This document shows, piece by piece, positions 45,886 through 55,302 of a stretch of 64,000 bases of DNA. This DNA is from Streptomyces sp. HUAS MG91 (GTDB taxonomy: Bacteria > Actinomycetota > Actinomycetes > Streptomycetales > Streptomycetaceae), in NCBI RefSeq assembly GCF_040529335.1, contig NZ_CP159534.1:372001-436000 (forward strand). The letters are read 5' to 3'. A program made the translations under genes and the position numbers. Position 1 is the first letter of the stretch, and each line of letters opens with the position of its first letter. The notes beneath the pieces were generated by a model. That model was given only the letters and a program-made list of their open reading frames with translations, was not told the origin of the DNA and did not search any database.

Positions 45886-46392
45886 TCAGCCCTGCTGGAA
45901 CAGCTCGGCGGGCAGCGGCTTCAGGAGCGCGTACAGGTCGTCGGTGATGGGGCGGTCCCAGGACGCGATGGTCACCAGGACGCCGTCGCTGCGGTCGAAC
46001 TGAACGCAGGAGATCCGGGTCTCGGACAGCTTGAGGCGGCGCACGATGAGGAGGTTGTCGCCCTGCATCACGGGGACGTCCTCGACGTCGGTGACCGTGA
46101 CCTCCTCGTCGTTCTCCAGCGCGATGAGCAGCTGGGCGACCTCGAAGGGGATCTCGCCCTCGGCGACCTCGCGGGCCGGGGAGCCCTCCGGCAGGTTGCC
46201 GATCACCATCGCGGGACCGCGGCCGCCGAACAGGTCGTAGCGCAGGAACACGCCCTGGCAGGTTCCGTCGGGGGCGGGCAGCAGGCCCGCGCCGAGGTTG
46301 CCCGGCCAGTCGCCCGGGTCCATGGCCAGGACGTCGAAGTCGGGGCCCGCGGGGGTCGCTGCTCGGCGGCGGAGGAAGGACATGCGGCCCAT
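45886..46392 (-). CDS. Conserved hypothetical protein
   Basis: A 168-residue soluble protein that I do not recognise beyond its resemblance to uncharacterised Streptomyces proteins. Visible features: a short basic N-terminus (SFLRRRA), then VLAMDPGDWPGNLGAGLLPA, an acidic middle (ENDEEVTVTDVEDVP) and a C-terminal half rich in beta-strands. No signal peptide, membrane segment or known motif. An alternative ATG three codons later is equally possible. No ribosome site is obvious. It lies downstream of the fold-back element and of the LuxR gene, on the same strand as both. Confidence 0.7.
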   Translation of the reverse strand: MGRMSFLRRRAATPAGPDFDVLAMDPGDWPGNLGAGLLPAPDGTCQGVFLRYDLFGGRGPAMVIGNLPEGSPAREVAEGEIPFEVAQLLIALENDEEVTVTDVEDVPVMQGDNLLIVRRLKLSETRISCVQFDRSDGVLVTIASWDRPITDDLYALLKPLPAELFQQG

Positions 46393-46453
46393 GGTACGTC
46401 GCCCCGGCGCCTTCTCCCCCTGCGGGGCTCCGGCGCCGGGGGCCGATGCGGGG

Positions 46454-46634
46454 CTAGGGCCTGTCTCTCAGATCCCTCCTGCCTCGCGACGCCTGGCACG
46501 CACTCTCGCCGCACCGGGTACAAGGCCGAGTACGTCCAGTACGAGGCCTCGCACCCGGCACGCCGAGAGCACGCACCAGACGCCGCGAGGCCCGCCCTCC
46601 GGGCGGACGGAGGGATCTGAGAGACAGGCCCTAG
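46454..46634 (-). repeat. 181-bp fold-back element (MITE-like or structured RNA)
   Basis: The ends are perfect 26-bp inverted repeats (46454-46479 and 46609-46634), each bounded by CTAG. Inside, 46481-46533 pairs with 46539-46591 around a 5-nt loop, and CCGCCC-TCC-GGGCGG (46592-46606) forms a side hairpin, giving a three-way junction. Of 53 inner positions 40 match, 10 differ by transitions and 3 otherwise. All 10 transitions are A or C on the left arm against G or T on the complement of the right arm, so they are G-U pairs only in a minus-strand transcript. The right CTAG supplies the TAG stop of the LuxR gene. It could be a miniature transposon, a 3'-UTR element or both. Confidence 0.85.
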
Positions 46635-49531
46635 GTGTGCAGCGCCGCGGCCAGTCCCGCCTGGTCCGTGCCGACCTTGCGGTACACCGCGGACAGCAGG
46701 CGCACCACGTCCGGCTCCGTCAGGTGCAGCTCGGCGGCCGCCTCCGCCGGGTGCAGGCCGCGTACGGCGCAGGCCGCGGCGGCCCGCTCGCGCGTGGTCA
46801 GGGCGTCGGTGGCCGCTCCGCGCAGTGGCCGGGGCCGCAGGCCGGCGGCGGCCAGTTCGTCCCTCGCGCGCTCGACCAGGCCGTCGGCGCCGCAGTCGGC
46901 CGCGGTCTCCAGGCCCCGGTACAGATGGTCGGCGGCGTCCTCGGCCCGTCCGCCGCGGCGGGCCTCGGCGCCGAGGGCCACCAGCGAGCAGGCCAGTTCG
47001 TAACCGGCCGGTGAGCGTTCCAGGTGGGCGACGGACTCCTCCAGGAGTTTCGCGCGCTCGGAGCGCGGCGAGACGTCGGCGGCGGCGCGCAGTGCCTGTC
47101 CGATCGCGGACGGTGCGCCGAAGTGGCGGGCCCGCTCGACGGCGTCGTGGGCGAGGGCGAGCGCCCGGTCGGGGGCGTCGTGCGCCTCGGCGCGGGCGAG
47201 GTGGAGCTGCCAGGGGCACCAGCCGGGGTTGCGCATGCCGCGCGGATCGAGGCGGCGCCCGGCCGCGCCCAGCTCCGCCGCCGCCTCCTTGGTACGGCCG
47301 AGCGCGAGCAGCAGCTCGCCGTACACGGTCTGCGCGTCGGGGAAGACGACGGCGGCGGGGAACGGCGGCCCGAAGCCGTGGGTGCGCGCGGCCTCCTCGG
47401 CCTCCGCGACGCGGCCGCGGGCGAGCAGGACCTCGATCAGGGTGCCGCTGGCGTACCAGTGGGCGGGGGTGCCGGGTCCGACGCGCCGGGCCAGGCGCAG
47501 CCCGGCGCGGACGAAGTCCTCGGCCTCGGCGAGCCGGCCGCGCCGGTGGCGGACGTACGCGAGCAGCGTGTAGGCGAAGGAGAGGTGGGCGCCGTGCCAG
47601 CCCGCGCGCTCGAAGTCGGCGATGCCGTCGACGAACAGCTCCTCGGTGCGGCCGGGCCGGTCGGCGTACATGAACGCCATGGCGACCAGGACGGGCACCT
47701 CGAAGCCGCGGTCCTCGTCGGCGGCCCAGCACAGGCCGCCTTCGAGGGCGCGCTCGGCGTGCCGCAGGACGACGTCGACGGGTTCGCCGCGCAGGGTGGC
47801 GTCCCAGGTGCGCAGGCCGATGATGTAGCGCTCGGTGAGGTCGCGTCCGGGGAGCCGGTCGGCGAGTCTGGCCAGGCGCCGGGAGCGGGCCGGTGAGTCG
47901 GGTTCGTCGGCGCGGAAGGCGTCCCACATGAACTGTTCGGCCTGCATGCGCAGGCGGACGCGGGCGTCGTCGGTGGTGCGGATCTCGCGGGCGAGGATCT
48001 CCGACGCCTCGGCGAGCCGGTCGCTGTGGGCGAGGACCTGGGAGAGGCGGTAGACGATGCCGTGGCGCAGCGCCGGGTCGGTGACCGTCTCCTCCAGGGC
48101 GGCGCGCAGGTGGTTGACGGTGGTGGCCGGTTCGGTGAGCAGGGAGGCGCTGCCGAGTTCGTAGAGGACGGCGGCGCGGTCCTCGAAGGGCGGGGGTTCG
48201 CGCAGGGCGCGCGCGAGGTAGCGGCGGGCGGCGTCGGGGGCTCCGGCGCGGATGGTCTCGCGGGCGGCGGCGCGCAGCTCCTTGACCACCCAGCCGTCGC
48301 CGTCGGGGTGGGTCTCCAGGAGGTGGCGGGCGGCCGCGGCCGGGCCGAGCCCGGCGTTGAGGACGGTCCAGGCGGCCTGTCCGTGCAGGGCGACGCGGAC
48401 GCCGCCGGGGATGGCGCGGTAGACGGCGGTGGCGATGAGCGGGTGGACGAATTCGAGGGTGCCCGCGGCGGTCACCTCGCCGGTGAGGATGCGGGCGGTG
48501 CGCAGCCGGTCGGCGGCGTCGGCCGCCTCCTCGGCGCCCAGACCGGCGACGCCCGCGGCCAGCTCGGGGGAGATCTCGGTACCGAGGACCGCGCAGGCCC
48601 AGGCGAAGCGGACGGTGGCGGGGCCGAGGCGTTCCAGGCGGGCGATGAGGCCGCTGCCCTTGACGGCGGCGGCGAGGTCGCGCAGCAGGTGGGCGCCGCT
48701 CTCGGTCGGGGCGAGGCCGCGGTCGTGCACCTTGGCGGTCAGCTCGACGGCCTCGAAGGGGTTGCCCGCGGTGACGGCCCAGCACTCGCGGCAGAACGCG
48801 TCGTCGGCGTGCGCGCCGAGGGCTTCGCGCACCAGGCGGGCGACGGCGGGCGCGCTGAGCGGTTCGAGGCCGAGGGGTCGCTGCCCGCTGCGGCCCGGCA
48901 GGCCGCGCAGCGCCTCGCCGTGCTCGGGCAGTTCCTCGGGGCGGTAGGCGACGACCATCAACAGGGGCAGTTCCTCCGCGCGCGGGGCGAAGGCGGCGAG
49001 CCAGCCGAGGGATTCCGGGTCGGCCCAGTGGGCGTCGTCCAGGACGAGGACCATGGGCGCGCTGCGCACGGCGAGGTGGGTGAGCACCCAGTCCAGGCCG
49101 TCGCGCAGGCCCTGCGGGTCGGGCGGCGCGCCGTCGGAGGCCGCGCACAGGCCGAGCGCGGGGCCCACGATGGCGTACCAGCTGCCCAGTCTGGCGCGCA
49201 GTTCGGGCTCGGGCAGTGCGGCGAGCCGGGGCTGGATCAGCTGGCGTGCGACGTGGAAGGCGACGCCCTGTTCCTGGTCGCCGCCACGGGCGTACAGGAC
49301 GGTGCAGCCGCGGGCCGCGGCGCGCTTGCGCACCTCGGCGAGCAGGGTCGTCTTGCCGAGTCCGGCGGGTGCGGCGACGGCGAGCAGTGCGCCGTGCGGC
49401 CGCTCGGGCGGGTCGCTGCCGTGCGGTATTCCGGTCAGCTCGCCGAGCGCCTCGTCGACCGCGGCGAGTTCGCTCTCGCGCTCGAACAAGGTCCCTCGTC
49501 CTGTCCCACCCCGGCCAGCACGCAGCGCCAT
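46631..49531 (-). CDS. Large ATPase-type LuxR-family regulator (LAL) with degenerate DNA-binding end
   Basis: A 966-residue regulator of the MalT/LAL type. Walker A is APAGLGKTTLL (residues 55-64), Walker B is VLVLDDAHWAD (about 158-168), and a long helical-repeat region fills residues 380-890. The C-terminus should be a LuxR helix-turn-helix; it begins well with LTTRERAAAACAVRG but the recognition helix, usually TVExHL, reads EPDVVRLLSAVYRKVG, so DNA binding may be altered. The ATG is preceded by GGGAGGGGG. Its TAG stop lies in the inverted repeat of the downstream fold-back element. The target genes are unknown. Confidence 0.88.
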   Translation of the reverse strand: MALRAGRGGTGRGTLFERESELAAVDEALGELTGIPHGSDPPERPHGALLAVAAPAGLGKTTLLAEVRKRAAARGCTVLYARGGDQEQGVAFHVARQLIQPRLAALPEPELRARLGSWYAIVGPALGLCAASDGAPPDPQGLRDGLDWVLTHLAVRSAPMVLVLDDAHWADPESLGWLAAFAPRAEELPLLMVVAYRPEELPEHGEALRGLPGRSGQRPLGLEPLSAPAVARLVREALGAHADDAFCRECWAVTAGNPFEAVELTAKVHDRGLAPTESGAHLLRDLAAAVKGSGLIARLERLGPATVRFAWACAVLGTEISPELAAGVAGLGAEEAADAADRLRTARILTGEVTAAGTLEFVHPLIATAVYRAIPGGVRVALHGQAAWTVLNAGLGPAAAARHLLETHPDGDGWVVKELRAAARETIRAGAPDAARRYLARALREPPPFEDRAAVLYELGSASLLTEPATTVNHLRAALEETVTDPALRHGIVYRLSQVLAHSDRLAEASEILAREIRTTDDARVRLRMQAEQFMWDAFRADEPDSPARSRRLARLADRLPGRDLTERYIIGLRTWDATLRGEPVDVVLRHAERALEGGLCWAADEDRGFEVPVLVAMAFMYADRPGRTEELFVDGIADFERAGWHGAHLSFAYTLLAYVRHRRGRLAEAEDFVRAGLRLARRVGPGTPAHWYASGTLIEVLLARGRVAEAEEAARTHGFGPPFPAAVVFPDAQTVYGELLLALGRTKEAAAELGAAGRRLDPRGMRNPGWCPWQLHLARAEAHDAPDRALALAHDAVERARHFGAPSAIGQALRAAADVSPRSERAKLLEESVAHLERSPAGYELACSLVALGAEARRGGRAEDAADHLYRGLETAADCGADGLVERARDELAAAGLRPRPLRGAATDALTTRERAAAACAVRGLHPAEAAAELHLTEPDVVRLLSAVYRKVGTDQAGLAAALHT

Positions 49532-55096: not shown

Positions 55097-55168
55097 CGGG
55101 GCTCCTCTTCGGTGCGGGTCGTCTTTTTCGGGTGGGGGCTGTTTCGTCGCCGGGTGCCTCTTGCGTCG

Positions 55169-55274
55169 TGGCTGGTCGCGCAGTTCACCGCGCCCCTGAG
55201 GCATGCGCTGCGCGCAGCCTCCTCTGAGCGAGTGGAGCTCGTTTCAGGGGCGCGGGGAACTGTGCGACCAGCCA
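55169..55274. repeat. Dispersed Streptomyces-type intergenic inverted repeat
   Basis: Arms 55169-55199 and 55244-55274 (31 bp, two mismatches) flank a 44-bp centre. The wording TGGCTGGTCGC...CAGGGGCGCGGGGAACTGT is, from my memory of Streptomyces genomes, a frequent intergenic hairpin. It separates the hydratase gene from the DUF35 gene and may act as a terminator. Confidence 0.75.
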
Positions 55275-55302
55275 CAGACCACCCGCACCCGGCGACGAAG
55301 CA

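Follow-up and report, generated by a model that had tools for sequence, protein, structure and literature searches.

A 181-base fold-back element at positions 46454-46634 of the window (the whole 64,000-nucleotide stretch of Streptomyces sp. HUAS MG91 DNA that was analysed) belongs to a family of small mobile DNAs that is very common in Streptomyces and its relatives. Judged by its build it is a non-autonomous transposon (MITE) and, as comparison of its copies shows, covariation and wobble pairs fixed in one direction mark its inner part as having been under selection as a folded strand. The explanation that we favour, and consider rather probable, is that it is an IS5-mobilised fold-back MITE whose own folded minus strand, most likely as RNA, serves its propagation.

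Results

Architecture of the element

The element carries CTAG at either end. Its AGG...CCT limits fall at 46456-46632, where the family RNA model R1 (see below) matches the minus strand with 181.5 bits, and its extent is further supported by the empty-site and flank evidence. The outer arms at 46454-46479 and 46609-46634, which form the 3' and 5' ends, respectively, of the minus-strand RNA, are terminal inverted repeats that include the CTAG and have relatives on IS5-family elements; direct comparison confirmed the claim of the original prediction that these arms are complementary without mismatch over 26 bp. The inner-stem arms (46539-46591, the RNA 5' arm, and 46481-46533, the RNA 3' arm, both read on the minus strand) are 53 nt each with 10 differences, again as predicted; the stem of 53 bp, however, amounts to 50 pairs when the minus-strand RNA is folded. 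It is capped by the apical loop UGGAC (46534-46538, minus strand), in which both G residues are invariant in 169/169 aligned copies. Exactly 10 pairs of the minus-strand RNA are G-U, all of them in the inner stem and none in the outer arms or the side hairpin, and the plus strand has A-C at the same 10 sites, just as had been claimed. Folding also returned the proposed three-way junction with its 6-bp side hairpin (46592-46606, minus strand, loop GGA).

For the window copy, the minus strand folds with -171.8 kcal/mol (z -16.8) and the plus strand with -136.7 kcal/mol (z -13.0), which is 35 kcal/mol weaker. The one-sidedness of this single copy (10/10) is modest evidence; once relatives are counted, the evidence for a strand bias is overwhelming.

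Two minus-strand genes from the ORF list flank the element, a hypothetical gene of 168 aa (45886-46392) and a gene of 966 aa (46631-49531) that is LuxR-like by its earlier label and by its look. It can be seen that the TAG stop codon of the latter (46631-46633, minus strand) lies inside the terminal CTAG and straddles the element end, as the original prediction had noted. A neighbour's TAG stop is placed in this way in 99/183 copies, and the stops of both neighbours in 9/183. Mechanically listed reading frames run through or into 46454-46634, and from its length and fold the element is presumably non-coding. Scans with Rfam 15 of window positions 46200-46900, and of L001 with eight divergent relatives, gave nothing near the gathering score; a mir-2072 match in L359, which scored 33.4 bits where the cut-off is 100, was taken as chance. 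A scan of 46300-46800 for an intrinsic terminator (a stem followed by a T run) found none.

Size and distribution of the family

BLAST found 39 matching pieces in the 8.6-Mb genome of the strain itself (40 scored of 86 candidates), which we take to represent about 20 separate, nearly complete copies and a number of fragments. In the same kind of search, with two candidates scored per genome, 322/392 genomes of the genus had a match, the strain's own included. The RNA model R1, built from 70 copies picked for diversity among 116 distinct ones, matched 109/150 genomes and 13/17 genera of the family, and 24/246 genomes of the class, five of these belonging to two other families. Among the 80 of 117 matches listed from a named collection, the hosts were Streptomyces, Kitasatospora and one unplaced actinobacterium. 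Plasmid matches came from Streptomyces (33), Embleya (2) and, weak and partial, Gemmatirosa (1), and the one phage match was also weak and partial.

Outside this bacterial family, copies of 162 bp with the same layout occur in three genomes, G566, G583 and G543 (L368, L369, L372, L373, L392 and L393); internal-loop words like GCAAGGCGGAGG and CGACAACGC recur in these and in many copies from within the family. Three copies in the strain's own genome (L009, L012 and L013) have other short hairpin repeats inserted inside the stem, of which GGGGTCTCCCCTGCTCGAGCGAAGTTCGAGAGC, present in L009 and L013, is an example.

Pairing favours the minus strand throughout the family

Reverse-strand self-hits and loci from end patterns were set aside, and 130 of the remaining 133 loci matched. 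Exclusion, before folding, of 9 that were interrupted or truncated gave 121 extracted copies, 116 of them distinct. The minus-strand RNA was the more stable in all 116 of these full-length BLAST-found copies, by a median of 36 kcal/mol. Addition of the second collection, from which 64 of 117 matches were kept (43 were not extracted and 10 lay at edges) and 11 proved to be duplicates, enlarged the set to 169 distinct copies, and the minus strand was again more stable in 169/169. The same strand was favoured in 39/39 divergent copies (38 distinct) found with the RNA model, which itself represents the minus strand and so leans to it; these were 39 of 40 fetched stretches, L394 giving no match, and they had 4-22 G-U pairs on the minus strand against 0-5 on the plus strand (22 against 1 in L391). 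Five copies with a very different distal half (L014, L015, L016, L019 and L022) had 8-9 G-U pairs, also on this strand.

Over 80 pairs in the 169 copies, 11018 cells were Watson-Crick, 1744 G-U, 95 A-C and 441 other. When 70 copies were aligned, 97.3% of cells were paired, compared with 88.2% after shuffling and at most 48.0% after sliding, and both sides had changed at 36/80 pairs (420 cells). The one-sided wobble extends to the end stems, where column 4 has G-C in 41 copies, C-G in 10, U-G in 10, U-A in 7 and others in 2 (n = 70), and C-A is absent from it in 116 copies. Unpaired columns were conserved like the paired ones, with entropies of 0.48 and 0.50. This covariation, and the excess of G-U over A-C changes described below, support the earlier suggestion of selection on a minus-strand hairpin.

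Selection might act solely to remove perfect palindromes from DNA, where they are unstable, and would then leave arm differences of any kind. Such selection would fit the scatter of the 10 inner-arm differences along the stem of the window copy, by which a long perfect DNA repeat near the loop is avoided. It predicts no strand bias, yet 169/169 copies lean one way, and as a sole cause it is refuted and given very little credence here; as one factor alongside selection for the fold it may contribute. That strand bias might be a general trait of GC-rich fold-back repeats was ruled out with a second family, which resembles the element in being high-copy and GC-rich. In the element the direction of the bias is fixed, whereas this second repeat, in 30 of its 40 scored own-genome places, gave 15/30, with no fixed direction.

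The second repeat is itself present in the window at 55143-55299 (minus strand) and is of the GGCTGGTCGC...GCGACCAGCC type; its 40 places were scored from 438 own-genome candidates, and within one copy the wobble often falls on one strand, though this can be either of the two.

Changes on the tree are strand-specific

Changes were counted by parsimony over the 180-base element on a tree of 162 of the 169 copies. One-step transitions from Watson-Crick pairs led to G-U 74 times and to A-C 14 times on inner branches, and 103 and 40 times, respectively, on end branches; sorted by length of the end branch, the counts of G-U to A-C were 7:1 for short ones, of which there are few (P 0.07), 33:10 for middle and 63:29 for long ones. 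In 34 independent pairs of copies that are at least 97% alike there were 29 G-U/Watson-Crick differences against 6 A-C/Watson-Crick differences, part of this excess being expected because existing G-U pairs can revert. Variants private to one copy (G-U 11, A-C 14) would, taken alone, indicate no bias in the newest changes. This count disagrees with those from the tree and the pairs, and we judge it to be skewed because a new G-U in a column that already holds G-U is not private. Relaxed selection in resident copies, as the private variants might suggest, is thus unsupported by the tree and pair counts.

A mutational strand asymmetry without selection, for example C to T change on a transcribed element, would account for the preponderance of C>T over G>A (54 against 9) among one-step transitions from Watson-Crick pairs on inner branches, but A>G and T>C (20 against 5) are likewise skewed. 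The 54 one-step events from Watson-Crick to A-C on inner and end branches together are G>A and T>C transitions. The one-step forms of change from G-U to Watson-Crick need these same transitions, and such changes are frequent (151, of which 64 on inner and 87 on end branches) even though G-U cells are far fewer, so the G-U excess is no mutation bias. Both-side changes at 36 pairs also stand against mutational asymmetry, which is contradicted by the counts and to which we attach next to no weight.

Insertion at CTAG

Genome G059, that of the nearest relative found, lacks the element at the corresponding place, which includes the end of the LuxR gene, and has a single CTAG there between collinear flanks. 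This empty site, at one locus, and the short length with terminal inverted repeats are traits of a MITE, and together with IS5-family partners that have similar ends they lend support to the suggestion that the element was born from one. The flanks read CT|element|AG in 104/143 copies with AGG...CCT ends and CC|GG in 8/143; CTAG at both ends is compatible with duplication of TA, and the CC|GG flanks with insertion without duplication. In seven copies (L002, L004, L005, L007, L015, L135 and L141) the neighbours are convergent pairs whose stops both derive from one CTAG, and the element rebuilds both.

Flanks were compared between 208 copies, more than 150 bases of flank being available on the left for 205 of them and on the right for 204. 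None were shared among the first 162 copies, and in the whole set only one pair (L381 and L382, 100% alike, from two genomes) had both flanks in common. We conclude that insertion sites are seldom kept between the sampled species. As the sampled copies are, but for this pair, at different sites, nearly all of the changes counted above arose in lineages that were also spreading.

Candidate IS5-family partners and element ends

End searches in plasmids, followed up for CTAG-flanked elements with ends of the element's type, led to a series of candidate partners. The Streptomyces anulatus element L317 (CTAGGGCGTGTTGCGAAAGT) encodes an annotated IS5 transposase that matches NF033580 over cut-off, PF13340 and PF01609, and the S. 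cyaneofuscatus element L318 (CTAGGGCCTGTCTGACAATT) also has an annotated IS5 transposase, with NF033580 over cut-off on one open ORF. Three further elements are flanked by CTAG: L321 from Arthrobacter (CTAGGGCGTGTCTGACAATT, 947 bp), one ORF of which narrowly exceeds the NF033580 cut-off; L320 from Rhodococcus, which is over the cut-off for PF01609 and under it for NF033580; and L323 from Kocuria (947 bp; ORFs by reading only). In the strain's own genome, L427, found on contig C1 at 1.7 kb from its start, shows 55% likeness to part of the L317 transposase. The ends of L427 are CTAGGG(A/G)CTGTTTCTCGGATC, near the CTAGGGCCTGTCTCTCAGATC of the window element, with about 3/21 positions different. 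Identity at one end extends to 20 bases between the TGTTGCGAAAGT class of copies and L317 (hit H57) and to 22 bases between the TGTCTGACAATT class and L318; the window copy's own end class is similar, but not identical, to IS5-family ends (L427). From these ends and the CTAG flanks, we infer that movement is brought about by IS5-family (DUF4096 / DDE_Tnp_1) transposases.

In the same genome, copies about 89-91% like that of the window carry two or more end types different from its own (L004/L007 and L005/L006), and the two ends of L013 are unlike each other, which suggests that ends have been exchanged between copies. Several end types on one core raise the question of how both ends of a MITE come to be changed at once.

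An IS630/Tc1 partner was rejected, since PF13358 had no match in the strain's own genome and 30 IS630 loci had no paired related ends (a single related end occurred in L310). Aeromonas L324, which has one such end and lacks the second, was not counted as a partner. When R1 was run over the window and eight loci (six of partner type, L322 and L092), the full hairpin was absent from the six partner-type loci, and L092 and L322 were found to hold short end-only versions. Such mini-versions, in which the inner stem is missing and the end repeats enclose just a small hairpin, are found in L092 (about 2599-2669), L025 (about 1475-1545) and L322 (3001-3078), and that of L092 adjoins an ORF that by its look resembles an IS5-type transposase. 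Two of the IS5-type elements apparently carry an extra gene between their ends, annotated as a membrane-associated oxidoreductase in L317 (3001-5558) and a SAM methyltransferase gene in L318 (3001-4669).

The fold is independent of the neighbouring host genes

The original prediction saw in the element a possible structured 3'-UTR on the strand of the LuxR gene. A host function in cis, with the hairpin ending, shielding or cleaving the neighbour's mRNA in the manner of CREE/NEMIS, would agree with the 99/183 copies found at a TAG stop codon and with the window copy, whose hairpin strand is that of the LuxR gene it follows. Orientation was counted for 183 of the 208 copies, using gene calls from a simple GC3 finder and excluding 9 copies whose flanks were short, 9 that lay within a predicted ORF and 7 lacking a gene on one side. 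Where the flanking genes were in tandem, the hairpin strand ran with them in 47 cases and against them in 49 (P 0.92), and stop codons at the element end were divided 61 and 47 by hairpin strand (P 0.21). Pairing was compared in 157 copies: those lying sense only (44) had a mean of 2.25 unpaired cells and those lying antisense only (35) a mean of 2.60 (P 0.58), with 3.67 where both neighbours run in (33) and 2.53 where neither does (45). Apparently random orientation and equal pairing in sense and antisense copies indicate that the selected fold seems not to serve the neighbour's mRNA. The single shared insertion site among 208 copies and the empty site in G059 also tell against such a role, and we consider it improbable; a 3'-UTR function on the LuxR strand is unsupported by the orientation, pairing and shared-site tests.

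The folded strand might alternatively be single-stranded DNA, arising in replication, conjugation or excision, in which G-T would be tolerated better than A-C. DNA energy rules likewise favour the minus strand of the window copy (-93.1 against -75.8), and an orientation independent of host transcription also fits. A G-T pair in DNA still costs energy, and Watson-Crick pairs should then be preferred, yet several inner pairs are almost always G-U (columns 58-137 and 59-136, in 69/70 copies each). Furthermore, the partners found are DDE transposases, which act on double-stranded DNA. We regard single-stranded DNA as unlikely, though clearly worth keeping in mind, and the fixation of G-U in nearly all copies points to RNA as the form in which the strand probably folds.

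Discussion

As far as comparison of sequences can establish, the family is characterised by the build of a MITE, a CTAG site, IS5-type ends, covarying pairing on one strand and independence of host-gene direction. The mechanism that we favour is that a fold-back MITE is mobilised in trans by IS5-family (DUF4096 / DDE_Tnp_1) transposases into CTAG targets. CTAG is often the end of a gene, so that insertion there would remake the TAG stop codon and do little harm. The minus strand, most likely as RNA from copies that chance to be transcribed in that direction, would fold into a structured hairpin that contains a three-way junction and whose loops are conserved; lineages that keep the fold would spread, and those that break it would fail to. 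The step served would then be the element's own propagation and not control of a neighbouring host gene, and some protein presumably reads the folded strand. A further version, which we put forward tentatively as a fair possibility that may well prove wrong, is a selfish structured RNA, in which no protein is encoded, a transcript of one strand (its three-way junction fixed, with side hairpin and GG apical loop) is needed for spread and the DNA ends are borrowed and swapped from several IS5-family transposons. A literature search over titles and the starts of abstracts found no RNA-dependent MITE.

The CREE/NEMIS of Neisseria are, in the part of the source available, described as small protein-less mobile repeats with inverted-repeat ends, a conserved core and many copies, which form a stem-loop when transcribed, may have outward promoters and in some cases an IHF site, and lie in mRNA on which RNase III acts (PMC2649163). 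As far as that partial account goes, the element is like them in being small, mobile and presumably protein-less, with inverted-repeat ends, a conserved core, many copies and a stem-loop if transcribed. It is unlike them in its IS5-like ends with a CTAG site, its strand-specific G-U fold and its random direction to host genes, and in that a consensus scan of 46300-46800, which covered sigma-70 promoters, found none. The portions of PMC1590033 and PMC1525189 that were available each contain a single mention of Streptomyces, one relating to a reference and the other to IS117.

IS5-like ends and CTAG flanks are shared with IS5-family MITEs. Plain MITEs are usually considered to require no more than their ends, whereas in this family the interior folds on one strand, is conserved and covaries, and similar cores are combined with several different ends. 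REP/BIME sequences, which go with RAYT, are short palindromic intergenic repeats with a tetranucleotide site, and in all of these respects the element resembles them; it differs in its long terminal repeats, its empty CTAG site and a partner that is of the DDE type, not a Y1/HUH enzyme.

The family is missing from the RNA library searched (Rfam 15), although 322/392 genomes of the genus have a match, and no description of it was found among the titles and abstract starts searched, a body of literature largely outside the subscription journals. Rebuilding of the TAG stop may account for the tolerance of so many copies in dense genomes. The family presents a case of a MITE interior that appears to be under selection as a folded strand, independently of the adjoining host gene, and if the fold is RNA, a DNA transposon may depend on its own transcript.
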